Source: a virus. Taken from it: DNA of 35,004 nucleotides. The stretch covers positions 1 to 35,004 of the IMG/VR virus record IMGVR_UViG_3300024508_000005. One strand, written 5' to 3'. Positions 6,088 to 33,860 of the stretch are shown one piece after another. The notes under the pieces are model-generated. The model was not told the DNA's origin. It was given only the letters and a program-made list of their open reading frames with translations, and ran no database searches. The position numbers and the translations under genes were made by a program. Positions within the stretch are counted from its first letter, which is position 1. Each line of letters starts with the position of its first letter.

Positions 6088-6540
6088 ATGAAAAAAAATG
6101 AAAAAAATCTTCCAAATAATTTTGAGCAAAAGAAAAAAATAGTAGAAGAACTCGAATGAGAACTTCCACCAGGAGAAAGAGAAAAAGAAGAAAATAAATG
6201 ATGACGACCAAAGAAAATTGATGACCGCACTCTGCAAAAACTCAAGCTTTGTTTTTCGGTAGGAATGACTGACCAACAAGCAGCTTATTTCTGCGGAATA
6301 TCTGAGAGAACTCTCTACAGTTATCAGAAGAAAAATACGAGGTTTATGCAGGAAAAAAAGATATTAAAAGAGAATATAAGTTTACAAGCTCGAGTGAATA
6401 TTGGAAGAAGTATAAAATCAGGAAGTGTACAAGACTCATGGAAGTGGTTGGAGAAAAAAGATAAAGACTTTGTACCAAAGTTTAAATTAGAGTGAGAAGT
6501 CTCCCATAACACACATAAATTAATAAATGATGTACTGTAA
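6088..6540 (+). CDS. terminase small subunit-like DNA-binding protein
   Basis: 150 aa with UGA as Gly. A basic, low-complexity N-terminus leads to GGRPKKID (both Gly are TGA), then a helix-turn-helix with SVGMTDQQAAYFCGISERTLYSY pattern (residues about 61-83), a further helical region, and WKWLEKKDKDFVPKF near residue 118. GRPxK followed by an HTH and a WxLE..d..f motif is typical of phage small terminases that recognise packaging sites. The gene directly precedes the large terminase (2 bases between them). The exact family is not certain, but context supports the call. Confidence 0.75.
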
Positions 6541-6542
6541 AT

Positions 6543-8219
6543 ATGCAAATATTCTCATATGAAAAGACACCAAAGAAAAGAAAACTCATTAAAGAAAATA
6601 TGCTTGAGAGTCAAGAGTTTCGAGTCTCATATTTTCCATATGATTTTTTTGCTTTTTGTATTTATTATTTTTGAAACAATATGATTCTATGAATCAAGGA
6701 CTTTCACAAAGAAATAATGAAAATAGCTAGCTGAGATAGAAATGCTCTCATTATATGATTTAGGGAATGTGGGAAGACGGCAATAGTCGCTCTATGGTAT
6801 GTAATATATTGTATTGCTACAAAAAAAGAAAAATTCGTACTCTTTATGGCATACGATCTTGATAGTGCTACAGAAAAAGTAAACAATATTATTACCATAC
6901 TTAAAACCAATAAGATACTCATAAATGATTACTGACTCCTCTTTGATGATGGAACCAGTAGAAAACAGAATCTCACGGAAGCAAACAAACAAAAAACAAT
7001 GAATAAGTTTGTATCTACCAATGGAGTGAAAGTACAAGCCGTATCACTTAAAAATATGAAAAGATGAAAACAATTCGTAGACGATGAGTGAAATGTACTC
7101 AGACCGAGTCTCCTTATATGAGACGATATAGATATAGAAGAAAGTGTGAAAAATGAAAGAATTATAGAAGAAAACTTCTACAAAATATCAAGTTGAGTAT
7201 TAAACTCAATACGATGACGAGCCATATTCTTATGAAATATTATAGCAGAAGACGGAGTGAATATACGACTCAGAGATGAATATTGTAAAAATAATGATAT
7301 ATGGAACTACAAAGAAATAGCGCTCCTAGAAAACGATGAAATAGTCTGGGAAGAAAAATATGTATGGACCCACGCAGAAGCTCAGAAGATAAACAAAGAA
7401 AAATATGACGGAGAAAAAATGGTGACTTCAATAGAAGAGCTACAAATAAACCCAGAAGCTTTTAACTCTGACTATCTCAATAAACCACGAATCGTTATAT
7501 GAGATCCCGTCTTCAATACAGAAAATGTTTTGAAACTGGAAGAACGAGAACCTGTATACACCTATAATATGAAAATAGATGATAGAGAAATAATACTAGA
7601 TATATTCTATGAAGACTTCAAAAAAGATTATTTCGATTATCTCTATGCTGGAATAGATACAGCAGGAGGACAAGGAGGAGAGAGTGATAGTTCGGACCTT
7701 ACATTCTTAGACAAAGATGGAAATCTCTACGCAAGAATAAATAGTAATATATTGAACTACAAACACCTCTATAAACTACTTCATATTTTACACAATGACT
7801 ATTGATTCCATTTTTTCAATAATTCTCTCTGTATCGAACGAAACTATATGTGAGTAGCACTCATAGAAGAACTCAAGCAAGATAATCCACATGTGCTACT
7901 GAGTAAATGCTATATACCAACCTCAGAATGAAAGAAGCATACCAAATATACGAATATTGTTGGCTGGAATACCACCCATACTTCAAAAGAACAAATGAAA
8001 GACGGACTTGATAGAGCTATCAATCTTTGAAAGTTACAAATAGATACACTGATGAAAAAAGAATTAAAATGATGGACCAGAGAAGAAGTAAATGGAAAAA
8101 TAATATATGCCCCTGACGGAGTGAATGTGAAACACGATGATAGTATTATCTCGTATGGACTAGCTCTTCAAATGTTTTTGAATTATAACCCTAATTTTTT
8201 AGATTATGAACACCATTAA
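6543..8219 (+). CDS. terL: terminase large subunit (packaging ATPase-nuclease)
   Basis: 558 aa with UGA as Gly. Walker A-like GFRECGKT is at residues 72-79 (first Gly is TGA), and Walker B-like LLIGDDID at about 189-196. The C-terminal RNase-H-fold nuclease shows GIDTAGG at 369-375, a middle acidic residue near CIERN (about 429-433), and HDD at 530-532. This is the normal length and order for a phage motor that packages DNA through the portal. It follows the small terminase and precedes the portal module. The last 14 bases overlap the next gene. Confidence 0.92.
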
Positions 8220-8538
8220 AGAAAACAATCTCTACGACAAACAAATAGAGCTCATTGATGTGGCCATTGATATTCTGAAAGAGAGATTTAAGGAATACAG
8301 AGAAGATGAGGAGTATTCCTATCTCTTTTATAATAAAACAATACCACCTCATATATGGCAAATACTTCTTACCACTAAGAATAAAATCAACTTCAAGCCT
8401 CTCATTGAGAGAATCAAAGAAAAATATGGATTCTCTACTCATATGACGAGAACTTTGATACACCATTATGGATATTCTGATGTGTTGAAAAATGGGAAAG
8501 AATTACAAAAGCAATATTTAAAAAGTATAAGACGATAA
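8206..8538 (+). CDS. hypothetical protein between terminase and portal
   Basis: 110 aa, no TGA codons, starting 14 bases inside the end of the large terminase. The sequence is helical and charged (KQIELIDVAIDILKERFKEY), followed by IPPHIWQILLTTK and KYGFSTHMTRTLIHHYG. I do not recognise a family. Position suggests a packaging or portal accessory factor, but this is inference. The first copy of the TTTTATTCTA element begins 4 bases after its stop, so it appears to end one transcription unit. Confidence 0.75.
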   Translation: MNTIKENNLYDKQIELIDVAIDILKERFKEYREDEEYSYLFYNKTIPPHIWQILLTTKNKINFKPLIERIKEKYGFSTHMTRTLIHHYGYSDVLKNGKELQKQYLKSIRR

Positions 8539-8541
8539 AAC

Positions 8542-8551
8542 TTTTATTCTA
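8542..8551 (+). promoter_or_regulatory. late-promoter-like element, copy 1 (before portal)
   Basis: TTTTATTCTA, just after the stop at 8538 and 53 bases before the portal ATG. One of seven identical copies in the structural region. It could act as a -10-like element for a phage-modified or alternative polymerase. Confidence 0.7.
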
Positions 8552-8604
8552 AAAATCATCTTTGTATTCTTTTCTGTAATCATAGCTTTTAAAAATCTCA
8601 CTCC

Positions 8605-9954
8605 ATGAACAATACAACTCCTATAAACTCCAAAATACAAGACTATCTCTGAGAAGTAAGTGAAAGATTAGAACTCGTGAGTGGAGACTATTTGAATAAT
8701 GAAAAAAGTGAATATTTTCAACTCAATGTAGAACATCTCTATCCACAACAAATAGAAAAAGCAAAACTCCTTAATCCAGGAAGTTATATTTGAAGTGTGG
8801 TATATGACTGGATAAGCTCCTATTTATGAATACCAGTACACAATGAAAACATAGACTGGAAAGATGTAGTAGAGTGAATCCTGGCAACAGGGAACATTCT
8901 TTTCCTTATGGATATTGATAACAAGAAACTCAAATCAATCAAAGCTAATAGGTATTATCGAAGTGGAAGTAAAGAGTATATCGTATCTGTATTTGAAGAA
9001 GACGAGGAACAGAATATTTTGAATCATCAAAAAAATTATTACCTACTCGTAGAAAGCTATAAATCACCAATTTTCACAAGAAAACTCTACAAACTCAACA
9101 GCTCTGATAGTTATATGTTTTGAGATGAAGTACCACTCAGTACTCTCGCAATAACCAAAGGAAAGGCAAGTGAACTTACCCTTAAAAACTTAGATTCCCT
9201 AGTCTATCAAAAAGAAATAGAACATTCTCTTTTAAAAAAAATCAAAACAATTATTCATTCCATTGATGGAAAACTCATGGAAGCAGATAAAAACTTTAGG
9301 CAATATACTGAGCAGTTTAAAATATTTAGAAATCTTGTTATTCCAGATAACTGTTACAAGAAACTAGAAAATGGAGTACAAGTGATTGATTTTGATAAAC
9401 TTTGAAAAGTAGTACAGACCAACGATCTCCAATGAAGTGTATGAGGGCTTGAAATAGTGAAAAATACCAATCAGTTACTCGTTGATAGTTTGGATTTTAT
9501 AGACAAACAAATACGACAAATAAGTTCCATCACTACGATCCCTTTATTTGCTTTTTGAATCAAACAGGAATCAGGACAAGACTCAGGAACGAGTAAGATA
9601 AAGAGTGCGGGAATATTTTATAAGAAAATAGAAAAATATAGAGATTTTATTTCACAGTGATTTGAGTATTTTTGGGAAATATTCTCAGTACAAGAGGAAA
9701 AAAGGATTTTAAAATGGAATGCAATAACCACCACTGACCCCAAAGAAATTATTGAAAATGAAGATACAAAACTCGCAAATGGAACTACGAGCAGAAAAAG
9801 AGCTATTATGAAGCAAGAATGAGTAGATGAAGAACAAGCTGAAATAATCCTCCAAGAAATTCTAAAAGAAAACTTACTTTTTAATCCTATACAAAATGAT
9901 TGAGGTAATAGCACCACAAAAAACAAAGAAACAACAGGTGAAAGACACTCTTAA
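8605..9954 (+). CDS. portal protein (SPP1 gp6-like)
   Basis: 449 aa with UGA as Gly. A mixed N-terminal region includes the LNVEHLYPQQIEKAKLLNP stretch. The core has VVYDWISSYL and ILATGNILFLMDID. A long helical section carries DFIDKQIRQISSITTIPLFAFG (about residues 299-320), then SAGIFYKKIEKYRDFISQGFEYFWEIF, as in SPP1/SPP-like portals where this is the stem and crown-proximal helix. The C-terminus is acidic with EGVDEEQAEIILQEILKEN. It follows the large terminase, as usual, and is headed by its own TTTTATTCTA leader. The dodecameric ring role is family knowledge. Confidence 0.8.
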
Positions 9955-10071
9955 ACTTATAAAATATAAGTTCAGATGACCAATACAGTATTTTCTTTAT
10001 GTAAATATTACTTTGTATTTTCTCTATATGATCAATCTTATTTTTCAAATCTCTCTCTAATTCGCATTTCA

Positions 10072-10081
10072 TTTTATTCTA
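10072..10081 (+). promoter_or_regulatory. late-promoter-like element, copy 2 (before scaffold)
   Basis: TTTTATTCTA, 117 bases after the portal stop and 129 bases before the scaffold ATG. The leader is longer than at the other copies because a terminator-like hairpin (10082-10119) and a second small hairpin lie between. Confidence 0.6.
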
Positions 10082-10119
10082 AAACACTTTGCCAGTATAT
10101 TCACAGTTGCAAGGTGTTT
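10082..10119 (+). terminator. hairpin with T-rich tail downstream of portal
   Basis: AAACACTTTGC (10082-10092) pairs with GCAAGGTGTTT (10109-10119) with one G-T wobble, followed by TTCTTTATTTTT. It is terminator-like, but it starts right after copy 2 of the TTTTATTCTA element, so it may be part of a leader or attenuator instead. Confidence 0.6.
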
Positions 10120-10156
10120 TTCTTTATTTTTCATTATAAAATACTGTAGAAAGAAC

Positions 10157-10178
10157 CTACTCATCCTTTAACGAGTAG
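10157..10178 (+). other. small leader hairpin before scaffold
   Basis: CTACTC (10157-10162) and GAGTAG (10173-10178) form a short stem followed by an A-run, 32 bases before the scaffold start. The stem is short and could be chance; it is listed because other structural leaders also carry hairpins. Confidence 0.35.
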
Positions 10179-10210
10179 TAAAAAAATTAATTGTATAACC
10201 AAAAAATATT

Positions 10211-10822
10211 ATGGCTGAATTATTACCAGGAGAAGTAGCAGTTTCAAAAACTGAATATGACTCACTTTTAAAAGATAGTGCGAATCTATGAGGTTTACAA
10301 GAAAAACTATCAAAAATAGAAGAAGCAAAAGAAAACCAAAGAATCGCAATGGAAAAAGCGAAAGATGAACTTTCAGAATCCAAAAGACAAGCAAAGATAG
10401 ACCTATCCAAAAAAGAAGAAGAAATAAAAACAATAAGGGATAAGCTTTGACTGGAAGAAAATGATGAACTCTTACCAAAACTGGAAACTCTGATTCAGAG
10501 TGATTCAAAATATTCTGAAATTCTCCAAAAAGAATCTGAAAAAAGAGCTGAAACTATTACTTCCTATGAGAAGGTTCTCTGAGAAGAATTTATAGAAAGT
10601 AAAAAAGAACTCTTTGAAAACCTCTCAGATGAAGCAAAAGAAAATCTTTTAAAAGAGTTTATTGACCTCAAAGGTTTATCAGATAAGACAGAACCAAAGG
10701 TTGATATCACCGATGATAATAAAACAGATCCAAATAAAAATCCTCTAGGTGAATTTGATGAAACACTTCAGAACGGATGAACTTCTGCAGACCTCATTTC
10801 ATCTATAGCGAACTCTATTTAA
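10211..10822 (+). CDS. capsid scaffolding-like protein
   Basis: 203 aa with UGA as Gly. The protein is almost entirely charged and helical: a long coiled-coil-like stretch from about residue 20 to 80 (LQEKLSKIEEAKENQRIAM and onwards), a middle acidic section, and a C-terminal tail GEFDETLQNGGTSADLISSIANSI. The length, composition and place between portal and major capsid fit a phage scaffold (GPO/gp20-like) that shapes the procapsid and then leaves. No serine-protease motif was seen, so I do not call a fused protease. The assignment rests on position and composition. Confidence 0.65.
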
Positions 10823-10841
10823 CATATAACCCTATACAAAT

Positions 10842-12062
10842 ATGAGTAAAAATGTATCCGATTTTGATATACAAAGACAAGTATTACAAACAGCAAAATC
10901 TGTAGCAAAAGAGCAAGGACTCTTATGAGAAATTGCTTTGAGTAATACTGGATCTGAAGTATTAACGGGAAGTAAACTCGAGAGAAAAGAAATGGTATAC
11001 AGTCCTATTAAACTTGAAATTGATACGGCTATTGCCAGTGGCTATTTTGATACTACTGCAAAAGATGTTGTAGTAATTTCTGGGGCAAAAGAACTCCAAG
11101 TATGAGACTTGCTTATCTTTCAGTCAGCAAATAAAACCTCAAAAGGAAGTCTTACAGTTATCGTTGATTCTATTACTGATGATACTACTTTCAAAGCGAA
11201 GAAAGTATGAGGAACTGATATTGCTATTGCTTCATGAGATCTCGTATATCTTTCGAGCTCTGCCCTTGAGGAATGAAGTACCAATTCTGAATACAGAGGA
11301 ATCACAAAACCAAGGAATGTGTATAACTATCCACAAATCTTTCGAGTAGCAGGCTCAGTAAGTGGTTCTATGGCATCTACCAATAATTGGGATTTCAAGA
11401 ATATCAAGGCTGAACTTATAAAACAAGTTACGCTTGATCTCGCAAGAAAACTCAATGGAATTGCGACATCTTCCATTCGTTATACGACTACTACCTCTGA
11501 TGGAAAACTCAAAAACTATGCATGAGGTCTTCCTTTCTTTGTATCCAATCTTTTTAACGAAGATGGAGATATGGTAGCTGGAACGGCTCCAAATGTAAAG
11601 AATGTTGGTGGAGTTATTAGTCTTGATGATATAAATGATGGATTCCAATATGCTATTGAGAATGGAGGGAACCTAAATGCTATTATATGTTCTCCTGACC
11701 AAGCAAGAAAAATTTCTACCTTTGAGAATGCAAAGATTAATATTCAGCTCGTTAATGGAGCAGGTTCAGTACCAACGAAGGTATGAGGAGCAGTACAAGT
11801 TCTTGAGAGTCCAATTAAGGTTGGAAAGAATAGGATTGAAGCTATCTATGTTGATACGAATATGGCAAAAGATGAAGCATATCTTTTCAATTCTCAGAAT
11901 GGAAGACTTATCCCAAAGAAAGATAGAGGGATTGTGTGATTCAAGATCCAACAACCAGATGAAAATAATGACAACTATAGAGTTGGAGCCATATGTGAGT
12001 GGACTTTCTACTACGAAAATGCTCTTGAAAATACATTCAAACTGGAATGATTGAGTTTATAA
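10842..12062 (+). CDS. major capsid protein (SU10/DUF5309-like, HK97 fold)
   Basis: 406 aa with UGA as Gly. The N-terminal arm includes GSEVLTGSKLERKEMVYSP, followed by a beta-rich insertion (residues about 85-145) and then the core: RVAGSVSGSMASTNNWDFKN, a helix with KQVTLDLARKLNG (about 190-205), a glycine-containing turn GKLKNYAGGLPFFV, and a C-terminal half ending in AICEWTFYYENALENTF. This resembles the SU10 major head family, where ..K..E....MNGIA and a GGL loop precede the A-domain. It lies directly after the scaffold (19 bases) and is followed by a terminator, fitting a highly expressed gene. Confidence 0.8.
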
Positions 12063-12076
12063 AAATACTTTCTACG

Positions 12077-12108
12077 AAAAAGGATACATTCACTTGTATT
12101 CTTTTTTT
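12077..12108 (+). terminator. intrinsic terminator after the capsid gene
   Basis: AAAAAGGATAC (12077-12087) pairs with GTATTCTTTTT (12096-12106) with one G-T wobble and an 8-base loop. It runs into a seven-T stretch, starts 15 bases after the capsid stop and overlaps the beginning of copy 3 of the TTTTATTCTA element. Confidence 0.7.
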
Positions 12109-12114
12109 ATTCTA
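12105..12114 (+). promoter_or_regulatory. late-promoter-like element, copy 3 (before head-tail connector)
   Basis: TTTTATTCTA, 47 bases before the ATG at 12162. It lies immediately after the capsid terminator, which makes most sense if it starts a new transcript for the connector operon 12162-13691. Confidence 0.72.
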
Positions 12115-12161
12115 AACTTTTTCCTTTTATCATATCTACAATAATTTCTCATTCCTTAAAA

Positions 12162-12614
12162 ATGACCAACATACTTGTTGAAAATATTACTTATCTTACT
12201 ATTGATGAAGTAAAAGATAGTTCGAGTCTTTTTGACTCAAAAGAAGATCAATATATACAAGCAATAGTCAGACAAGCTGAAAGAATTATTGATAGTATTA
12301 TAGGAAATTATGGAACCAAACAAGAAGAAAACCAAAAAACCCTCTTTCCGATTCAGTGAGAGGATATTCCTCTGGAAATAAAACAAGCTACCCTTTTACT
12401 CAGTGAGTGCCTCTTAAAAAAACAAAACAATACAGGTAATAGAATCATAAAATCAGAAAAAAGGAGAGGGAATACCATTACCTATGATGTAGAACCAAGT
12501 ACAAATAAATACTCTGATATACACCCTTGTATAGATGAAAGTATCTATACTCTCTTACAACCATATCTTCCAACAAAAATAGAATCTGGAAGCGATAATT
12601 TTTTTAGAACCTAA
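12162..12614 (+). CDS. head-tail connector / head completion protein (gp6-like)
   Basis: 150 aa with UGA as Gly. The N-terminus (YLTIDEVKDSSSLFDSKEDQ) followed by a helix YIQAIVRQAERIIDSIIGNYG and then EIKQATLLLSECLLKK is the usual layout of gp6/gp15-like connector proteins, which dock on the portal ring. The C-terminus is polar with the VEPSTNKYSDI segment and ends in ..LLQPYL. The first gene after the capsid terminator, it probably heads a four-gene operon. Pattern and position agree; the family name is not certain. Confidence 0.7.
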
Positions 12615-12623
12615 TATATTCAA

Positions 12624-12932
12624 ATGATGTATACTGTTAGTACCAAAAGAGTAAACAATGATGGAACGAAGCAAGATATATATACCGATATTCAAGCAAT
12701 AGATATTATTATGAATGACAAAGGAGATAAAAGCGAAGATATATCAGAAAACTCTCCTGTATGAGACTATTTTGTTTTTTTGAAAAAAGAGTATACCGAT
12801 GTGAAAATATGAGACTCTCTCTATTTTATCGATAACTTTTGAGACCAACAGAAAGTAAAAGTAATTTCAAGAGATTATCTAGACTTTGAATGTAAAGAAG
12901 CAGAAATAGAATTACTCTGTAAACTGAATTAA
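12624..12932 (+). CDS. small head-tail joining protein (stopper-like)
   Basis: 102 aa with UGA as Gly; the start could also be the second ATG at 12627. It is beta-rich: QDIYTDIQAIDIIMND, then a SPVGDYFVFLKKEYTDVKIGDSLYFI strand pair, then VKVISRDYLDFECKEAEIEL. The KIGDxLYFxD turn resembles the small barrels of phage stopper/head-closure proteins. It lies between connector and gp10-like genes, where head closure proteins sit in siphoviruses. The function is inferred from position and fold pattern only. Confidence 0.6.
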
Positions 12933-12933
12933 A

Positions 12934-13302
12934 ATGAGAATCAATATGAATATACCAGGCATTATAGTAAAACATAAGAACGTTATAAGAAAATGACTTG
13001 ATATATTTACTGATGATTTGAAAGAGGGAGTAGATACGAGAACACCAGTAGATAAGAAAAAACTGATAGGAAATACAAAAAGAAGCGAAATAATAGAGAT
13101 TTGAAATACACTCCAAACCAGGGTTTATAACGATACCGATTATGTAAAACTAGTTGAATATTGAGTGAAAGGAAGAGAGTATAACTATAATATTCCTAAT
13201 GATCCTGATGGTTTAAAAAGTGGAGTATGAGCAGGAATGTTTAGAAGAACAAAATTTGATATGGAAGATAAACTTCCCGACTATATTCTAAAGAAAAGAT
13301 AA
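12934..13302 (+). CDS. HK97 gp10-like tail-joining protein
   Basis: 122 aa with UGA as Gly. A helical N-terminus (RKGLDIFTDDLKEGVDTRTPVD, about residues 20-41) is followed by KKKLIGN and strands ending in TRVYNDTDYVKLVEYGVKGRE. The sequence TPVDxGxLxxS and VYNxxxYAxxxExG is the signature of the HK97-gp10/PF04883 family, and the match is close. These proteins link the tail terminator to the head. The stop overlaps the next start (TAATG), so the two genes are probably translationally coupled. Confidence 0.75.
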
Positions 13303-13691
13303 TGAAAAAAATTGAAATACAAGAACTCAAAACTTTTTTGCAGAACGATAGTAGCTTACAAACTATTTTCTGAAGCAATGTTTTTTTTGGACTTCCACAT
13401 ACAGAACCAGAATCTACCTATTTAATTTTTCATATTCTTTCGAATAAAAAACAATGATGTTATAACAAAGACTTGATAGAGTTTCGAATTATAGGAGGAA
13501 GTGAGGTAACGGAGAATCTCGAAATGAAAGAATACTTTGATACTTTGGAAAGTGTTCTTATCAGTCAAAATAAAGATATAGGAACGCTTAAAAGCTTAAT
13601 AATACAGTGCCTGAATGACGAATATATGGGTATCAACGAAAAGGATAGAAAAGAAATCGAGCGAACCTTCACTTTTAGCTATGCCATTTAA
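13302..13691 (+). CDS. tail completion/terminator-like protein
   Basis: 129 aa with UGA as Gly. It starts in the TAATG overlap. It shows a helix (IEIQELKTFLQNDSSLQTIF), GLPHTEPESTYLIFHILSNKK, and strands such as EFRIIGGSEV, then LESVLISQNK. This alternation of an N-terminal helix with a P...P.....v.f.i strand resembles DUF3168/tail-terminator proteins, which cap the tail at the head side. It comes right after the gp10-like gene and before the tail tube region, as expected. Copy 4 of TTTTATTCTA begins at the base after its stop. Confidence 0.6.
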
Positions 13692-13701
13692 TTTTATTCT
13701 A
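13692..13701 (+). promoter_or_regulatory. late-promoter-like element, copy 4
   Basis: TTTTATTCTA directly after the stop at 13691 and 51 bases before the ATG at 13753. The leader contains AGTGAGA/TCTTACT able to pair (one G-T), then a T-run that abuts the start codon. Confidence 0.72.
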
Positions 13702-13752
13702 GTATAGGAGTGAGATATATTTGTCTTACTTTTATATTTTAAATATTTTTTT

Positions 13753-14094
13753 ATGTCTAAAAATCAGAAAAATACAACTCAAAAGTTAGGAAGTACTGAA
13801 GCTGAGAAAAAACAAACCCCTCCTAGCCTCCCCTTATCAGGGGAGGAAAAAGTAAAAAAAGAAGTAGAAGTAATTGAAAAACAAAAGCAGGAAGAACTAG
13901 AAAAGAAGAAAGAAGAGAAAAAGAAAGAAGAACAGAAAAAAGGAGAGACAGAGAAAAAGGCCACAGGAAAAACGAAAATAAAATTAGTTTGTGATGTGTT
14001 GTACTGAAAATGAAAACGAAAGAAATGAGAGATTTTAGAGTTAGAAAGTGAGGAACTCTCTAAGTTTTCTAAAAGCTTTTATGAACTCGTTTAA
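13753..14094 (+). CDS. Lys/Glu-rich coiled-coil protein carrying an in-frame palindromic repeat
   Basis: 113 aa with UGA as Gly. The N-terminus is polar, and a run of about 40 residues (about 35-75) is almost only K, E and Q, so a single long helix or coiled coil is likely. The C-terminal part has a TGKTKIKLVCDVLYGKGKRKKGEI segment, a small basic beta domain, and ends in ELSKFSKSFYELV. Residues about 21-32 are coded by a GC-rich palindrome of foreign look. The position between tail terminator and tail tube suggests a tail or head decoration protein. I do not recognise a family. Confidence 0.65.
13816..13846. repeat. GC-rich palindromic element inside a coding sequence (copy A)
   Basis: CCTCCCCT (13827-13834) and AGGGGAGG (13839-13846) form an 8-base perfect stem with loop TATC, preceded by ACCCCTCCTAG. 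The segment is far richer in G+C than the gene around it and uses a rare GGG glycine codon, yet keeps the reading frame. It encodes PPSLPLSGEE. It looks like an inserted REP-type palindrome. Confidence 0.7.
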
Positions 14095-14101
14095 TTTCTT
14101 T

Positions 14102-14132
14102 TTATTGTTGTTATCCTTGCAAATAACAATAA
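14102..14132 (+). other. hairpin between coiled-coil gene and tail tube
   Basis: TTATTGTT (14102-14109) pairs with AACAATAA (14125-14132), or the alternative TTGTTAT (14108-14114) with ATAACAA (14123-14129). There is no long T-run behind it. It may be a weak terminator or a leader structure of the tail tube mRNA. Confidence 0.4.
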
Positions 14133-14171
14133 ATCGTATAAATACTTTATATGAATAAGTAAAAAGAAAAT

Positions 14172-14930
14172 ATGAGCCAAGAATTATTTCCTACCATAGT
14201 AGGAAAAGCGAGAATAAGGAAGTACGGAACCAATGGACTCTTCGCAGACCTGGAGTGTGCAACCAATGTGAAAACTTCTTTAAATACCACTGAGAATACG
14301 GCTGAACTTGTTTGTGGAAGTGGAGAAACACTCACGCTTGAAAAACCAACAGGGAATATAACCCTTACGGTTATTAAAACAAAGAATCCAGAACTCTTGT
14401 GAAAGATTCTTTGACTCGATGTGGTTTCTGCTACTGCTTGAACCAAGCCTATTACGAATGAACCAAATACTTTTGAAGCTGATAAAATAGAACTCACTTA
14501 CAGGAGTAATGATGATAATTGAGTAACTTCTCTTGTCATAAAATCAAGTGATGGAGTGATAACATATGCTGATACTAACGACTATACAGTTGAGGTGGTG
14601 GAGAATAAAACTATCATTACGAGAGTATCTTGATGATCTATTCCTGAATGAGCCAAAGTACTCGTGAGTGGTTGAGTGAATCAAAATGCTTCCAAAGAAG
14701 TCTCTCTTGATCTCGTTCAAAGAGTAAAGGAGAGAATCGAAATTGAAATATTTGGAAAGAAAGAGGGAACGAATAAATACACGACTATTCATGCAAAGCC
14801 ATGTGTTCTTGATAGTGAGTTTATACTCGAAATGATAGACGCTTTCCGTGATGGTGTTCCTACTGGTTCAGAGCTGACTTTCAAACTCAATGATGGGGCT
14901 AACTGGAAAATGAGAGATGAAAATATTTAA
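14172..14930 (+). CDS. tail tube (major tail) protein
   Basis: 252 aa with UGA as Gly. The sequence is beta-rich throughout: FPTIVGKARIRKYGTNGLFADL, then NTTENTAELVCGSGETLTLEKP, then ITLTVIKTKNPELL. Next is an Ig-like stretch with DTNDYTVEVVENKTIITRV (about residues 136-155), and finally KERIEIEIFGKKEGTNKYTTI and GSELTFKLNDG. Length, position before the chaperone and tape measure, and the K..DVS.....f.s......i....G pattern fit the tube family of siphoviruses (V-like), with a short inserted domain. An upstream ATG at 14151 is followed soon by TAA, so 14172 is the start. Confidence 0.72.
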
Positions 14931-14933
14931 TAT

Positions 14934-14943
14934 TTTTATTCTA
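14934..14943 (+). promoter_or_regulatory. late-promoter-like element, copy 5 (before tail chaperone)
   Basis: TTTTATTCTA 3 bases after the tail tube stop and 50 bases before the ATG at 14994; followed by a long hairpin. Confidence 0.72.
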
Positions 14944-14949
14944 GCTTTA

Positions 14950-14993
14950 AAAAAAAGATAATACAGTAATATTTTACTCTATTATCTTTTTTT
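14950..14993 (+). other. long leader hairpin abutting the tail chaperone start
   Basis: AAAAAAAGATAATA (14950-14963) and TATTATCTTTTTTT (14980-14993) are perfect 14-base complements with a 16-base loop. The right arm ends at the base before the ATG. The shape is that of a bidirectional terminator, but its place between promoter-like element and start codon suggests a leader structure. Confidence 0.7.
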
Positions 14994-15491
14994 ATGGAGG
15001 AATTTCTCAGGAAAACTCATAAAATTATTATCAAGTACCCAAAAAGGGAAGTACTCTATACATTCAAAGAACCAACTATCTATACTCTTCTATTATTCCA
15101 GGAATATGTGAGAGATGAGGAGTATATAAAAGCCGTACAACAAATAGTGGATATTTCAGAATTAGACATACAGAGTAATCCTATATGAATTATCAATGGG
15201 ATTATGCAGAGTTTGCAAGGGGAGAAAAAATCATCATGAGAACAGATCTTTTTTCCTGCTGTGATTGATTTCATTTGAAAGAGATATGGAAATCCTATGG
15301 AGGTTCTCAAAACTCTTACGTATTCTCAATTATGAGAACTTATGAATGGTATGGAATATAATATGAATATTGAGAACGGAGAGGTAGGGAAGAATTATAA
15401 GTTTAGAAAGAAAAAGAGGATTAGTGATGAAAAGATGAGGGAGTATGAGGAGATTTTGAGGGAGGTGGATAATTTATCAAGAATAAAATAA
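14994..15491 (+). CDS. tail assembly chaperone-like protein
   Basis: 165 aa with UGA as Gly. It shows KIIIKYPKREVLYTFKEPTIYT and a helical central section (LLLFQEYVRDEEYIKAVQQIV), then a second half with FPAVIDFIGKRYGNPMEVLKTL and a very basic/acidic C-terminus ending REVDNLSRIK. A y.f..p........q....... beginning and position between tail tube and tape measure fit G-type tail chaperones. I found no shifted second frame after its stop that would give a GT-type extension, because a minus-strand gene begins 2 bases further on. Confidence 0.65.
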
Positions 15492-15493
15492 AA

Positions 15494-16495
15494 TTATTTC
15501 CCCATCATTTTGGTACTGATATAGCTAAGTATAGAATCTGTATTGATTCAATATAAGTTAAGGTTTTCTTCTCAACTAACTTGTTTTCGAAATAGTTCAG
15601 GACATTTATTTTCTAATTCTAATTTCAATTTTTTATTTAATCAGTGAACTTTATATAATGATCTAGCCTTTGATAACTGTTCAAAAGTAATATTTTTAGT
15701 TTTTGAGAAATTAATCCGACTGAGATCTGTATTAGTAAAATTTACAGTTTTTAAATCAACACCATCCAAAGTAGCATAATAAAGGTTTGCACTTGCAAAG
15801 TTTGTTTTGTTTAAGATACTTCAACTAAGTTTAACTCTAGGCATAAATGATTCTTCAAGATTACTATTCTCTAAATTCGTATTTGTTAAATCTGCAGTAT
15901 TAAAATTAGAGGCACTAATATCAATATTACTTAAGTCCATTCATTTTAGTTCCCCTAGTACAAAAGAACTATATCTTAAATCTACTTTCCTCAGATTTGG
16001 CAACTTTGAATAGTCAATAGCATTCATTTCTCAGTCAGGCCTGTTAATGAGTAGTGTCATAGCTTCTTTGTATAATACTTCTTGTTTTCAAGTTAATTGT
16101 TTTCCTTTCTCTAAATTAAGTAAGAAATTATAGAGTATATTTATGCTATTATTATGCTTACTATTATCCTTATTTACTGTAAAAGGTTTGAAAGATTGTA
16201 TAATAGATAGAGTTTTAAAAGTAGGGTTTTTTTCATAGTCACATAAATCATCTATATATTGATTATAGATGTTATCAACATATACCTTGTTACTCACATC
16301 AGAACTTTGAGCTTGGGATTCAGATGACTTACTTTGAGCCCTTGATGATCTATGGAGAGAAATATTTCTCCATACTGCTAAAGCTATACCAACAATTGCT
16401 ACTATAATAAATACAAGATTTCTTACATCTTCACTTGATGAAAACCAAAAAGAACTTTCTAAAACATCGTATATTATAGGGGAAGAAGTGTTCAT
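15494..16495 (-). CDS. membrane-anchored pentapeptide-repeat protein (moron-like)
   Basis: 333 aa on the minus strand with UGA as Gly. An N-terminal hydrophobic segment (about residues 26-42) is followed by a Ser-rich linker, a helical region (about 85-135), and then pentapeptide repeats A(D/N)LXX from about residue 190 to 270 (for example DLRYSSFVLG, ADLTNTNLENSNLEES, FASANLYYATLDGVDL). The protein is probably anchored in the cytoplasmic membrane with the right-handed beta-helix on one side. It is the only clear gene on this strand in the phage region, uses TTA for Leu, and carries its own sigma-70-like promoter. These are features of a moron expressed in the host, for example for exclusion or protection; that role is inferred. 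Confidence 0.85.
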
Positions 16496-16536
16496 CTATT
16501 ATAAGTAAAGTGATAAGTTTTTATTAACTATTATAA

Positions 16537-16564
16537 ATTATACATACACTTTCAAATATCCCAA
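16537..16564 (-). promoter_or_regulatory. sigma-70-like promoter of the pentapeptide-repeat gene
   Basis: Read on the minus strand: TTGGGA (16559-16564), a 16-base spacer and TATAAT (16537-16542), 41 bases before the start codon. It is divergent from copy 6 of the TTTTATTCTA element. Confidence 0.6.
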
Positions 16565-16567
16565 TTT

Positions 16568-16577
16568 TTTTATTCTA
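16568..16577 (+). promoter_or_regulatory. late-promoter-like element, copy 6 (before tape measure)
   Basis: TTTTATTCTA 47 bases before the tape-measure ATG and divergent from the minus-strand promoter. A 14-base perfect hairpin lies between it and the start. Confidence 0.72.
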
Positions 16578-16589
16578 CCCCCTAAACCA

Positions 16590-16622
16590 AATAATATTAA
16601 GAAAATTATTCTTAATATTATT
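16590..16622 (+). other. 14-bp leader hairpin abutting the tape-measure start
   Basis: AATAATATTAAGAA (16590-16603) and TTCTTAATATTATT (16609-16622) are perfect complements with a 5-base loop, ending 2 bases before the ATG at 16625. It has no T-run and no Shine-Dalgarno sequence, so it is more likely a leader structure than a terminator. Confidence 0.72.
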
Positions 16623-16624
16623 TC

Positions 16625-19285
16625 ATGTCCCAAGATTCAGAGAACATCATCTACATTGACAGCAGAGTAGATCTTACACAATTCCAACAAGACCTCAAAA
16701 AAGCAGACCTCATAGCAAGAGACACAGGGAAAAAACTTGAGAAAAATCTACTTACAAAACTCGAACTCAATGTCGCTGACTACCAAAGGAAAATAAAAGA
16801 AGCAAAAAAACAAAGAAAAGAACTCAAAGATGGAAGCTTGGAAACTCTCAAACTAGATTTAAATATAAACAGATATTCAAGAAAATTCACAGAAGCCAAA
16901 AGACAACTCAATAACTATGTAAACAATGGAGAAATAAAGCTCTCCAGACTCCAAAGAAAGTTTAACTCTCTCAAAGGAAGTATTATATCCGTATGAACCG
17001 TTCTCAAATCAGCCTTTATTTTCACATTTGTAAGCTTCTTTAGAAATTACTGAAGAAATGTATCCGAGTTCTGAAAAGAGTTTGAACTCGCTTTTGTATG
17101 AGTCAAAAAAACGGTTGAATGAAGCACAAAAGAACTGGGTACACTCAAAAAGAAACTCATAGACATTACTTTTCAAACGGGGAAAACCTTTAAAGAAGTA
17201 GCTGGAATAGCAGAACTCTGATGACAACTTTGAGTCGCAATAGAAGACCTAGAAAAGTTTACCAAAGTAATAACAGACATCTCAGTCTCTACCAACCTCA
17301 CAGAAGAAGCAGCTGCAAAAAGCTTTGCAAGAATATCAAACATACTCCAAGAACCTCTGGATGATATAGATAAAATGGGAAGTGCAGTAGTAGGACTCTG
17401 AAATAACTTTGCCACCACCGAAGCAGAAATACTCAGCTTCGCAGAAAGAATAGCATGAGCATGAAAAATAGCCTGACTCACCAGTTCTGACATATTCTGA
17501 ATTGCAACAGCATTTAGTTCCGTATGAATAGAAGCAGAAGCATGAGGAACAGCCGTTCAAAAGACACTTCTGAAAATGAATAATGCTGTAAATAACGGAG
17601 GAAAAGAACTGCAGAAATTTGCAAAACTCAGCTGAAGAAATGCAGAAGAATTTGCTCATATTTGGAAAACAGATGCCAGTAAGTGATTCGAACTCTTCGT
17701 AAATGGACTATGAAAAGCTTGAGATGATGCGAGTAATATACTCTGAGAACTCATATGAAATGATGTCAGACTCCAAAGAGCATTCCTCAGTCTTGCCAAT
17801 GCATGAAACCTTGTAAATCAAACACTCGAAACATCAAATCAAGCCTTTAGAGAAAACTCAGCACTCACGAATGAAGCCAGTAAAAGATATGAAACCTTTG
17901 CTATAAGAAGTGAAAGGCTCAAAAGAGAACAAGAAGCACTCTACTCCTCTATACACAATAGTAATTCTGCCATATGAAACCTTATTCTCTCCCTCAAAGC
18001 TTGGTTTATCTGAGCTCAAAAAGGATTTTTCACTATCGTAGAAGCAATTAAATTTGGCTTTGAAACCATACCAAAGTTTATAGAACTTAAATTTGTAAAC
18101 CTATTACTAAAAATAAATAAACTCCTGAAACCTCTAGAAAAAATAGGAATCAAAATAGATTTTACTTCCAATATTGAAAAAAGAAGCAAACAAATACAAA
18201 GTGAGTTAGATAGTCTCAAACAAAACGCAAAGAAAAATATTTTAAATATCAATCTTCCCACAGCAACTCCAGAAGATATTCGAAACCAAAGAAGTTATAA
18301 CACCTGATACAAGAAAAGCAATGAACTCATAGAAACCAACCAAGACTTAATACAGGAATCCCAAGAGTGAAAAAAAGATCTTACCAAAATATACAAAGAG
18401 TATAATAAAAAAGTAGACGATGGCCAAGACCTCATTCAAAAATACTATGAATCCATAATAGACGGAGCAAAGAAATCAAAAAACTCCGTAAGCGATCTTA
18501 TGGAAACACAAAAGGATCTTCAAAAAGAATTATCAAAAGCAACACAAGAAAAAGATACCAGTATAGCAGAAAGAAAACTTGAAATACTTGAACAACAAAA
18601 AGAACTCGAACAAGAAATGAGTGTATTCAAAGGAAAGGGAGTGAATATAAACTTGGCAAAAGGTATCAGTGAAAATGCTTTGATAGAACTAAGAGATGCG
18701 AGGTTTGGAACCACGCAAGATACTTGAGAGAACCTCTTACAAGTAAAAAGAATTTTAGAAAAACAACAAAAACTTAAAAGAGAAAGCCTTATTCTCGAAA
18801 AAAATCTTGATAAAAAAGTATTCATTCAAATACAGGAGTATAAAGAACTCTCTGAAACAGAAAGGATTCTCAGAGATTACCAGCAATTTGAACAAAATCA
18901 AAATCAGAAACTCACACAAGTACAAGAAGATATAGATCAGGAACAAACACTCTACGGAGATATGGTAGATATAAAACAACACTTAGAAGAAAACTTTACT
19001 TGATTTATAAAAGACCAAACTCTCGAACGAGTAGGGGAGTTAGAGAAGATAAAGCAAAAGGCAATAGAAGTAGCCAAAGAACTCAGGAGCTTATGATTTG
19101 AGTGAAAAATACCAACCAGTACGCTCTTAAATGCGGGAAAAGTAGATACAAAAATAGGGAATACCTGACCAGTTACTACCAATAATGCAAAATATACTAT
19201 CCATATAGATGCGAAAGAAAGACCTATCGCACAAGTAATGAAAGAACTCAAAAGAGAAATTCAAAAAGAAAACTTATTAACATAA
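16625..19285 (+). CDS. tail tape measure protein (TP901-like core)
   Basis: 886 aa with UGA as Gly. A charged coiled N-terminus (residues 1-118) leads to a hydrophobic segment (about 122-140). The conserved tape-measure core follows (about 205-400): DISVSTNLTEEAAAKSFARI, AVVGLGNNFATTEAEILSFA, AFSSVGIEAEAGGTAVQKT and GLGKAGDDASNILGEL. A second hydrophobic stretch lies around residue 455, and the rest is a long coiled coil rich in E, K and Q. Length usually sets tail length; 886 residues would imply a tail of about 130 nm by the usual 0.15 nm per residue rule. Many of the core glycines are TGA. It is headed by its own promoter-like element. Confidence 0.9.
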
Positions 19286-19295
19286 TCCACTGATA

Positions 19296-20204
19296 ATGAT
19301 CAATGAAAACATATTAAATTCTACGGTATTCAATGATAATGAAATACTTCAAGACACAATACTATGAGAAGAAATATCAAGTTTTTCTTCTGAATATAAG
19401 GGAAAATATTCTTTCAAAACGAAACTTGGAAGTATCTTCAACTTTAATACCATCGTTTGAGATTGTAGGGGAAATGACAGTAGGAAATATGGAAATACAC
19501 TTGATGACCATAATATAGAAGATATGGCCGATATAGATATTATCAAATATGAAACCCCACTCAGAAACGGTGGAATTATACAGAATCAAAGATTTATAGA
19601 AAAAATATTTCATATTAAAATAACACTCTATTCAAACACAATAGAAAATCTCCAAAAAGAAATACAAGCAATAAAAACAGCCTTCCACTCATGAGGTGAG
19701 CTCTATAAAAAAGAATACAACCGTGAAAGTTATATCAATGTAAAACTCGAATGAGGAGTAAAAGTCTGAAAAATACTCCTTTCTGGGACTCAAATAGAAT
19801 TTGATTTTATCTCTCTTGATCCTTTCTTCATCCAAAGAAACGGAACCACTAAGTTTTATGAAAATCAAACCGAACCTATAGATGGAACCCTCGTTATAAA
19901 CGATAGCGAATATCCTCCAATACTTACTACCATTATACAATTCTGAAATACCACTTGAGTGAATAATATAAAACTTGAACTCAATGGGTATGAACTCGAA
20001 GTAAACGAAACCATACCAAATAATGCTATCCTCATATTCAATGGAGAAGAAAATAAAGTAACACTCAATGGGACGGAAATAAAGTGATACAAAGGACAAT
20101 TTCTCCCATTTCCACTTGGAGTACCAGGAACTTTTAAAATAAATTATAATGGAACCCTTGATACATATAATACCTATATTTTATACGATAAAATAATCCT
20201 CTAA
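19296..20204 (+). CDS. distal tail protein (Dit-like)
   Basis: 302 aa with UGA as Gly. The N-terminal half has DCRGNDSRKYGNTLDDHN, the YETPLRNGGIIQNQRF segment and IKITLYSNTIENLQKEIQAIKTAF, which match the layout of siphovirus Dit proteins (a ring-forming N-domain with a helix pair). The second half is a beta-rich galectin-like domain (YPPILTTIIQFGNTTGVNNI, IPNNAILIFNGEENKVTL, FPFPLGVPGTFKINYNG). It follows the tape measure by 10 bases and overlaps the next gene by one base (TAATG). A tail-hub role is the natural reading. Confidence 0.75.
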
Positions 20205-21028
20205 TGCAAATAAAACTCAATTGCTATACATCAGATGGAACCCCAAAATGAGAAATACTCAAAGTAAAAAATTCAGACTCTCTTCGTTTCTCTGAATCTA
20301 TAAATGGATGACAAGGCTGACTTGATATTGAACTCTGAGAGAGCTTTGACAATGCTGATTACAACTCATGAGATTTTGTGGAATATATCATTTATAACGA
20401 TGAGTATAAAAATGGACTCCATAAATACACTTGATATATCACAGGGATAGAAAGAAAGCTCTCTATCAAAAAATGATCATCAATTATATTGAAAGTGGCC
20501 TGACTAAAAACACTCCTAGAACAATATGAAATACATAAAACATATACCTGAACTCTATCTAGTGTTATAGATGAACTCATCACAGACTTTCACTCTCAAA
20601 AGAATATTACCAATGAAATACAGTTCTTATGAACCAATATTTTAAAAAATACTATCAGCAATACCGACAATATTAATGCCTCTGTAAGTGGGAATTTTTT
20701 TGAAGCATTGAAAAACATATTTTGAGAAAATAGAGATTTCTTTATAGATAAATCTGGAAGTATACATCTCGTTTCTGAAAATACGAAAAAACATACCCTT
20801 ACTCTCAATAGCAATATCTCAGAAATAGAAATAAATGAAAATTCAGAAACACAAATAGAACTTTCTCATTATTCATATAACATAGAAGCTGGACAAAAGA
20901 TACAACTTCAAAATGTATCAAGTTTTCTCAATCTCGATAATCAAATTATACAGAAAATAGATTTTAATCTCTTGTCTCCAATACTGTATCTATGAGAAAC
21001 TTTGAGTTTTAAAAGTATAGTCTCTTAG
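20204..21028 (+). CDS. tail-hub / baseplate protein (Tal- or gp37-like)
   Basis: 274 aa with UGA as Gly, ending in TAG; it starts in the TAATG overlap with the Dit-like gene. Beta-rich from the start (MQIKLNCYTSDGTPKGEILK, LRFSESINGGQGGLDIEL), then SGDFVEYIIYNDEYKNG, YTGYITGIERKL and a helix TLSSVIDELITDFHSQKN. The repeated pattern of v.f......a..l.f.l...... with GY(I)TGI is that of phage tail-hub proteins of the gp27/Tal and ReqiPepy6 gp37 types. It lacks any peptidase or lysozyme domain. It ends the tail operon; the next gene has its own promoter-like element. Confidence 0.65.
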
Positions 21029-21031
21029 AAT

Positions 21032-21041
21032 TTTTATTCTA
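21032..21041 (+). promoter_or_regulatory. late-promoter-like element, copy 7 (before adhesin)
   Basis: TTTTATTCTA 3 bases after the hub-gene stop and 52 bases before the adhesin ATG, flanked by TCTTAGAA and AAGAGA. Confidence 0.72.
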
Positions 21042-21055
21042 AGAGATAAAAACCT

Positions 21056-21090
21056 AAAATCATACCTAATAATTGAATAAGTATGATTTT
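21056..21090 (+). other. leader hairpin abutting the adhesin start
   Basis: AAAATCATAC (21056-21065) and GTATGATTTT (21081-21090) are perfect 10-base complements with a 15-base loop, followed by TTT and the ATG at 21094. Same layout as the tail-chaperone leader. Confidence 0.65.
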
Positions 21091-21093
21091 TTT

Positions 21094-22932
21094 ATGCTCA
21101 ATATGAAAAATAATGTATTTGCAAAAATGAAGTCTTGACTCTCTATCACGACCACATTATTGATTATTGACTGATGAAAGGAAAACCTTTTTTGAGATGA
21201 CTTTCCTATTGAAGAAATAGAGAAGAGATTCAAACTGAATCTTATAAAATTCTCTTGAACCTCTGTGATTCAAAGAGAAATTGTACTCGTTACGAGTAAG
21301 TCTTGAAAGAACCTTACCATAGAGAGAGCAATAGAACTCTGTCCCTTGAATGGAAATGCAACAGAACATACACAAACAGCATATGAGTTTGATGAATGAG
21401 ATTATATTTATTTTAATCTTACTGCTTGAGGGATAAAGGAACTAGAAGAAGCAATAAAAAACTCTACTGACTTTGTAAATTATCTAAAAGCTTGAGAACT
21501 CCTATTAAACCAATGAGTAGATATTTTTTCTATAAAAAAAGATACTGATGGAGACGGAGACTCTGATGAAAACGAACTCGCAAAATTAAACCTATGAGGG
21601 TATCAATTAAACGGAACCGATCTCTTCGACAGCAACGGAAAACTTAAAGCCAATTTTCTTGAATCCAGCTGAACCGTTATATACAAAGCCCAAGAAGTAA
21701 TCTCCAAATGAGACAAAATCAATGCAGACATCCAAAACAATGGAAGAATCATATACCTCTGATGAGAACTCCCAGTCGTAAAAGCAACTGGAAACCTCAG
21801 TCTCTGAATAGCAAAAGCAGACTATGCGATATGAGATACAGTAGAAACCATGAACGAACAAGAATGGCAAGACTACCTCACATGAGATGAAAGCGATGGA
21901 GACCTCATAACCAGTGCCTGAGATAATATCGTACTCGAAACCAATAGAATATACAACTACAAAGATGTAAACATAGCAAATGGATCTACCATAACTACCA
22001 ATGCCACAACAGGCTTCATATTCCTCAAAGTAAAATGAACGCTAAACATTGAATGAAACTTCAACCTCTCAAGTAAAATAGAAGTTTTTGAAACATACCA
22101 AACCTGAATCTGGACTCTCAACATAAACCCTTGAAATCCATGAACTGCTGGAAGTGGATGATATGGTGGAAACGGATGATACCACAGCAGTTACTGAAGT
22201 GGCTGAACCAGAGGATACTGATGAAGTGGAGTCAACTGATTTGGATGATGAGGTGGAGGATGATGACACGGATCATGACAAAATGGAACCGTAAGAACCT
22301 CTTGAAATGGATGAAACGGATGAACCCCAGCATGACTCGGATGATGATGAACCATCAGTGGATGAAATTCAGCATGAGGATGATGAGCCTATAAATTCTG
22401 ATGAGGTATGGTATGAGCCAATGCCTACAGTAATTCTGCAAATTATGCTTGATACAGTTGATCATGAGGATGATGATGAGCCTGATGAAAAGTATGAAGC
22501 TTTTGAGTATGTCTTGTCATCATACACCAAAATACCATAACAGGAGTATGAACCATACAATCCAATGGATGAAATGGAACCAACGGAGGAAACGGAGCAA
22601 ACGGATGGAGTTACTCATGAGGAAGTGGAACCAATGTCTCATATTCTTCTTGAGGATGATGAGGTGGTTGAGGATGAGCTTGATGATGAGGTGGTGGATG
22701 AAGTATTTTACTCGTTTGACCAACCACAAGTCTGACACTCTCTACTACCCTCAATGGATGAAACCCATGAACCCCTTGAAACTGATGAAGTGGATGAACC
22801 CCTTACAACTTTAACGGACAACAAAGTGGAAGCGCATGAAACCCTTGAAATAATGGATGAATCGGTGGAACTGGAAATATAACATACAAACCACTCTCCG
22901 AAGTTTTAGACCTATACAAACCTACTTACTAA
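21094..22932 (+). CDS. glycine-rich adhesin / receptor-binding tail protein
   Basis: 612 aa with UGA as Gly. Residues 1-150 form a globular start (MKSGLSITTTLLIIDGGKEN, SGKNLTIERAIELC). A Ca-loop-like DTDGDGDSDENEL lies near residue 155, and a beta-solenoid-like middle follows (about 180-340). Residues about 346-595 are Gly-rich with Asn, Ser and Thr (NPGNPGTAGSGGYGGNGG and onwards), broken by SFGVCLVIIHQNTITGVGTI. Alternating TGA/GGA runs encode the Gly tract. Such polyglycine domains are known from phage adhesins (S16 gp38 type), where they form receptor-binding sandwiches. Place after the hub gene supports a host-recognition role. In the standard code the gene would not exist. Confidence 0.78.
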
Positions 22933-25960: not shown

Positions 25961-25969
25961 AATTTTGAA

Positions 25970-26027
25970 AATAACAAAAGTGGCTACGAAGAAAGGAAAA
26001 TCGTAGCCACTTTTGTTATTTACTCTT
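25970..26027 (+). terminator. strong intrinsic terminator at the end of the phage late region
   Basis: AATAACAAAAGTGGCTACGA (25970-25989) and its perfect 20-base complement (26001-26020) with an 11-base loop, then a T-rich stretch. It starts 9 bases after the last phage gene and marks the right end of the late region. Confidence 0.92.
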
Positions 26028-26129
26028 TTTTTAGGAAAACGCAAAATTCTTTTTAAGAAACTGAGGCTTTTAATAAGCTATTTTTTGTTTTTTTCTCTCC
26101 ATTCCCTATACTTTTCCTATACATTTTTC

Positions 26130-33782: not shown

Positions 33783-33860
33783 CACATAAAATGAGAGAAA
33801 GAGTGAACCACCGATATCTACATCTACAAGAATGGAGATTATCATGCTACTATTAAAGAC
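33783..33860 (+). pseudogene. chimeric fragment of the giant gene at the cassette start
   Basis: Reads HIKGEKEGTTDIYIYKNGDYHATIKD, matching HIEGQKEGATNIYIYKNGDHHATIQ at 31657-31735 of the giant gene. At ATTAAAGAC (33852-33860) it switches, in a different frame, to the sequence that matches 32030 onwards. A deletion between two parts of a duplicated copy would explain it. In the downstream frame a TAA lies at 33854-33856. Confidence 0.7.

Follow-up and report, generated by a model that had tools for sequence, protein, structure and literature searches.

What function do seven identical copies of a 10-nt element have in the structural region of a virus genome? The window analysed here is the entire record of a 35-kb virus contig (35,004 nt), and the box TTTTATTCTA occurs in it at 8542, 10072, 12105, 13692, 14934, 16568 and 21032, always on the plus strand, with no copy on the minus strand of the window. 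The next annotated ATG follows at 53, 129, 47, 51, 50, 47 and 52 nt, respectively. All seven boxes lie outside the annotated long ORFs, the copy at 10072 overlapping only a spurious ORF of 57 aa; the copies, strand, intergenic placement and ATG distances reported by the first-pass annotation were reproduced exactly. In 100 shuffled windows, TTTTATTCTA was present 0.99 times on average (maximum 4) and seven copies were never reached, and when the boxes were placed at random within their own gaps, the probability that at least six of the seven would fall 47–53 nt from an ATG was about 5e-6. Since the plus strand of the window contains a single one-mismatch version, the box is nearly invariant.

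The genes of the window are broken by translation table 11; this reading and that with table 15 were rejected, and the frames are open when TGA is taken as a sense codon. A subtilisin motif in the window reads QGHGTHVAGT only if TGA encodes glycine, which is the code of Gracilibacteria and Absconditabacteria (PMC10746230). The residues facing TGA in relatives are too mixed to settle glycine by themselves, and the subtilisin motif is the better evidence. Judged by its sequence, the window is a virus of Gracilibacteria-type bacteria, and the contig is probably incomplete. PHROG matches were found for a Sak4-like annealing protein, a replication initiator, a resolvase and a ParB-methylase and, among the structural genes, for the terminases, portal, head protein, connector, tape measure and distal tail protein. 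The small and large terminase subunits are encoded at 6088–8219 (+), 5' of the first box.

Each box is followed, after a spacer of 13–14 nt, by a sigma70-type -10 hexamer, which is TAnnnT at six of the seven window sites and GATAAT at the remaining one. When the sites of two syntenic relatives, G123 and G105 (see below), were included, 14 of 15 sites had TAnnnT at 14 or 15 nt from the box (shuffle mean 5.4, maximum 9 in 2000). With the -10 set as -12 to -7, this fixed spacing places the window box at -35 to -26 (one base further upstream at three sites). Thus, where the first-pass annotation saw no obvious -35 element, the 10-mer itself occupies the -35 region, and it was the -10 that had been missed. 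Transcripts are predicted to start ~26 nt past the box, giving leaders of 21–28 nt in the window, with the exception of the scaffold leader; over all sites, scaffold genes again excepted, the leaders are 21–30 nt long and nearly unstructured. Under the window boxes, the best match to a sigma70 -35 was 3/6 and no TGn extended -10 was found, i.e. the sites have neither the TTGACA-like -35 at 16–18 bp nor the TGn of host sigma70 promoters. Generic scans for sigma70 promoters and terminators stayed at or near shuffle level and failed to pick up these sites.

The first site would drive the portal gene (assigned by PHROG; ATG at 8605), its box at 8542–8551 (+) being followed by TATTCT at 8565–8570 and a predicted start at ~8577. 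The box at 10072–10081 (+), with TATATT at 10096–10101 and a predicted start at ~10108, precedes a scaffold-like gene (ATG at 10211) and the gene of the major head protein (PHROG), and its leader is 103 nt, compared with ~25 nt elsewhere. The head-tail connector gene (ATG at 12162) has its box at 12105–12114 (+), TATCAT at 12128–12133 and a predicted start at ~12140. For the genes starting at 13753 and 14994, the boxes are at 13692–13701 (+) and 14934–14943 (+), the -10s are TATATT (13716–13721) and GATAAT (14957–14962), and the predicted starts are ~13728 and ~14969. The tape-measure gene (ATG at 16625) is preceded by a gap behind a divergent minus-strand gene, in which lie the box at 16568–16577 (+), TAATAT at 16592–16597 and a predicted start at ~16604. 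The last box, at 21032–21041 (+), precedes a glycine-rich gene starting at 21094, with TAAAAT at 21055–21060 and a predicted start at ~21067.

A stop-tolerant TerL search of 353 genomes of the class yielded G123 (43% TerL identity over the match) and G105 (32%), both syntenic with the window, and the more distant G117, G091, G038 and G083. The orthologous late gaps carry TTTTATTCT[AT]-N13-TATAAT in G123 and TTTTAC[TA]TT[TG]-N13-TAnnnT in G105. The boxes read from intergenic gaps were TTTTATTCTA and TTTTATTCTT in G123, TTTTACTTTT-like sequences in G105, GACCTTGAGGGG in G117, and GACATTGAA with an A run in G091. G105 has TAnnnT at 14 nt in six of six sites, G117 at 15 nt in five of six and G091 at 18 nt (from a shorter box core) in five of seven, one G091 site carrying AAAAAT as its -10; shuffles rarely or never matched these counts. 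In G123, TATAAT is found twice at 14 nt, but with only two sites this count is reached by shuffles, and the portal gene of this relative lacks a clear box. The same layout was found in five further TGA-recoded phage lineages with a different box, GAC[AC]TTGA (class B), and the distance of ~50 nt from box to ATG recurs across unrelated box classes. No box was resolved in G083, G077, G111 and L323, and the non-recoded TerL relatives had no comparable box. IMG/VR scans with TerL, head protein and tape-measure protein patterns and a genome scan with the methylase found no relatives, the back-translated IMG/VR patterns probably missing TGA as Gly; a scan with a TGA pattern for the subtilisin found nothing, and the matches listed from a scan of IMG/VR with TTTTATTCTA were all chance-like, L176 among them being low-complexity. 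G038 was rejected as a case of the same layout: AACTAT[TC]CAAATTGGAGT is repeated without a fixed -10. This repeat occurs three times upstream of genes and beside hairpins (L034, region of 9407; L039, regions of 163 and 4008), possibly as another phage-specific signal.

Equal frequency in host genes or inside coding sequence, which the first-pass annotation had named as evidence against a late-promoter element, was not observed: TTTTATTCTA is at background (control) level in eight whole Gracilibacteria-class genomes, including the carrier of the closest relative, and no exact copy lies inside the annotated genes of the window. For the class-B box, every exact copy in the complete genomes of G091 (1.3 Mb) and G117 (1.4 Mb) is located in the late region of the prophage and on the coding strand, a distribution for which host sigma factors by themselves do not account. 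In the host genes of G091 (400 kb of DNA; L065–L084), TTGACA, a normal -35, peaks at about -58 and TATAAT at about -38 to -25 from the ATG, and the matching geometry suggests that the phage promoters use the host arrangement with the -35 replaced. The host peaks themselves imply short leaders of ~20–30 nt, and there is almost no Shine-Dalgarno signal in these genes. Based on these data, TTTTATTCTA is very probably one half of a two-part phage late promoter, the upstream half at -35 to -26, and sequence comparison gives us high confidence in the assignment of these sites as phage-specific late promoters with a box replacing the -35. The comparisons support the bipartite layout, its fixed spacing, the restriction to phages and late genes, and the hairpin overlap described below.

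At five of the seven window sites, a terminator-like hairpin overlaps the promoter; the sites at 8542 and 12105 are without one. The hairpin at 10082–10119 (+; z -3.0) has the -10 in its loop and the predicted start in its right arm. Those at 13702–13737 (+; followed by a T run; z -6.3), 14950–14993 (+; with a T run and reaching up to the ATG; z -7.3), 16589–16623 (+; z -7.6) and 21056–21090 (+; with a T run; z -3.1) all extend across the predicted start. Counting five phages, a stable hairpin lies between box and ATG at 16 of 27 sites, with a mean z of -3.0 over all sites. At the five window sites, the spacer contains the left arm, the -10 belongs to the loop or left arm, and the predicted start falls within the loop or right arm. 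Over the five phages, 201 of 234 base pairs straddle the predicted start and 2 are wholly downstream of it, and hence transcripts begun there would be incapable of forming the hairpin. The variation of the stem sequences from site to site argues against a common operator. We infer that the hairpins may act as terminators for the preceding unit, each nested with the promoter of the unit that follows.

In G117 and G091, a gene for a Cro/C1-type tandem-HTH protein is located between TerL and portal. A blind IMG/VR scan with the pattern GACATTGAAAAAA-N13-TAnnnT, in which no protein information was used, returned four contigs with repeated box and -10 sites (L238, L245, L317 and L221). The three checked (L238, L317 and L221) are TGA-recoded, and in them the box usually precedes the genes for portal, protease and further late proteins by 55 nt, with TA at +18. 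Two of the contigs, L238 and L221, span the TerL-portal interval, and both carry the tandem-HTH gene there. Conversely, a scan starting from the tandem-HTH protein found seven new contigs, six of which have, ahead of late genes, a box of the form GACATTG[AT]A, GACCTTGAG or CCTTGAGAATG. Under the strict site definition (box, TA and ATG distance), no site was found in 400 kb of host DNA or in 1.03 Mb of other viral DNA, the latter made up of contigs selected by the class-A pattern. For class B, the box search has therefore led to the HTH gene and the HTH gene search to the box, and this co-occurrence suggests that the tandem-HTH protein is likely to be the reader of the class-B box, as an activator rather than a repressor. 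G111, L323 and L046 encode the tandem-HTH protein but have no recognisable box; L323 and L046 may use yet other boxes. In the window, the TerL-portal interval contains a 110-aa ORF (8206–8538, +), which has a homologue in G123 and a weakly similar ORF at the same place in G105; by its position, the product is a candidate for the regulator that would bind the box. This ORF has no Pfam or PHROG support and no detectable similarity to the class-B tandem-HTH protein (hhalign probability 0.2), to which it is apparently unrelated; AlphaFold run without alignments gave pLDDT values of 49 for it, with no usable model, and 45 for the L238 regulator.

Several other explanations of the box were weighed against the late promoter. 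It could be an operator through which a phage repressor silences prophage late genes, in the manner of stoperators, over promoters that host sigma70 uses alone. The asymmetric, one-way, intergenic sites, the tandem-HTH protein of the class-B phages and the -35-like TTGA core of their box fit this explanation, and a two-domain mycobacteriophage repressor is known to bind an asymmetric site as a monomer (PMC9283540). However, with no -35-like hexamer or TGn under or near the window box, such a promoter would be very weak unaided, and the box is locked to the -10 rather than merely near gene ends. The position of the HTH gene between terminase and portal also speaks against a repressor: G117 has a separate HTH_3 gene beside those for an IrrE-like peptidase and a serine recombinase, a set that looks like an immunity module. 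We consider repression unlikely. Alternatively, a phage-encoded sigma factor might read both the box, as its -35, and the -10, as the bipartite layout with fixed spacing and the incompleteness of the window contig would allow; but TAnnnT is kept across phages with unrelated boxes, as expected if region 2 of the host sigma reads the -10, and no sigma-like gene was found among the PHROG-scanned genes of the window or in Pfam scans that covered the window and G117 in part, which makes this explanation improbable.

The hairpin and T run that follow the box at most class-B sites, and at five sites in the window, raise the question of whether the motif is instead an RNA element, such as an antitermination or processing signal before intrinsic terminators, with no promoter involved. 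This is very unlikely, since box, -10 and ATG distance are unchanged at 8542 and 12105, where there is no hairpin, hairpin sequences vary while TAnnnT is fixed, and the terminator of the G105 connector gene precedes the box. The near-constant ATG distance in several phages could also be that of a translation or start-codon element like the mycobacteriophage SAS. We find this scarcely credible, as SAS lie 3–7 bp from the start with AGGAG (PMC3203893), whereas ~50 nt separate the box from the ATG and the predicted transcript begins only downstream of it, and as the scaffold genes break the ATG distance yet keep the -10 spacing. Finally, the box is AT-rich and of low complexity, as expected of chance repeats in AT-rich DNA, but chance is contradicted by the number of copies, their strand bias, the fixed -10 and the conservation in relatives, and we assign it next to no probability.

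Under the late-promoter reading, the RNA polymerase of the host, carrying its primary sigma factor, would make contact at the TAnnnT -10, 13–14 nt downstream of the box. The box itself, in lieu of a sigma70 -35, would be recognised by a DNA-binding protein of the phage, so that each structural transcription unit would be switched on late. RNA reading in from upstream could fold and stop at the hairpin; RNA begun at the promoter could not. That the promoters are active, where their transcripts start, which protein activates them and what the hairpins do are predictions from DNA sequence. More generally, there is an about even chance that TGA-recoded Gracilibacteria-type phages have a common late system, in which i) a small phage HTH regulator encoded beside the terminase would assume the -35 role on host RNA polymerase, ii) box and regulator would change together between lineages, and iii) promoters would lie inside terminator hairpins, one cassette of ~50 bp ending one unit and starting the next.

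The T4 late promoter consists of one -10-like box. The window resembles the T4 late system (gp55/gp33/gp45) in having many separate late units and a short phage-specific box, but each site has an ordinary -10 in addition to an upstream box. The undescribed phage late-promoter element proposed by the first-pass annotation is accordingly well supported as a phage-specific late element, whereas its single-box, T4-late-like logic is contradicted by the separate TAnnnT -10. The closest mechanism is that of the T4 middle promoters (MotA/AsiA), in which a 10-bp MotA box, lying at -35 to -26 and 12 ± 1 bp (or 13) from a sigma70 -10, substitutes for the -35 (PMC2988021); here too a phage 10-bp box would take the place of the -35 before a sigma70 -10, with a spacer of 13–14 bp. 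TTTTATTCTA resembles the MotA box WWWTGCTTtA at 7 of 10 positions by eye, but its core is ATTC rather than GCTT and the class-B boxes are unrelated, so membership in the T4 middle class fails on the box consensus. In addition, the window promoters would control late structural genes, TTTTATTCTA is invariant whereas MotA boxes vary, other phages of the group use GAC[AC]TTGA, and the promoters are interleaved with terminator-like hairpins. No MotA or AsiA match was found among the scanned genes of the window, whose contig is incomplete.

Cluster A mycobacteriophage stoperators are likewise short, asymmetric, one-way intergenic sites, in a system with a two-domain DNA-binding protein (PMC9283540), but the box is locked to the -10 and ATG, is confined to late genes and shows no sign of elongation blocking. 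The start-associated sequences of Cluster K (SAS and ESAS) also repeat in one orientation ahead of start codons, are specific to their phages and in some cases contain inverted repeats (PMC3203893). SAS, however, have an SD core and occupy the half of the genome without structural genes, whereas the box is 47–53 nt from the ATG and has no AGGAG.

How phages of TGA-recoded and for the most part uncultured bacteria control their genes has hardly been studied, and the word 'promoter' is absent from the main paper found on such phages. The present data provide a late-gene signal that can be read from sequence, a family of candidate regulators, and a compact combination of terminator and promoter that lends itself to tests in vitro. 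That phages with no known T4 kinship have a layout resembling sigma appropriation suggests either convergence or that the strategy is used more widely. The generality across recoded phages, the co-occurrence of box and regulator and the nesting of terminators make the element of above-average interest.

Other features of the window are also worth recording. A lone minus-strand gene of 333 aa (15494–16495), located in the late region between the gene at 14994 and the tape-measure gene, has PHROG matches of unknown function and is possibly a moron. The gene at 21094–22932 contains a long glycine-rich stretch encoded mostly by TGA, with 82 TGA codons in the ORF. The subtilisin-like protease gene is followed by a very long repetitive ORF (together 26209–33186), and the coding stretch at ~32030–32270 appears by eye to be partially duplicated at 33850–34130, the second copy being outside a long ORF. 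A long inverted repeat followed by a T run (25969–26031; aaaagtggctacgaagaaaggaaaatcgtagccactttt) is probably the terminator after the late operon.
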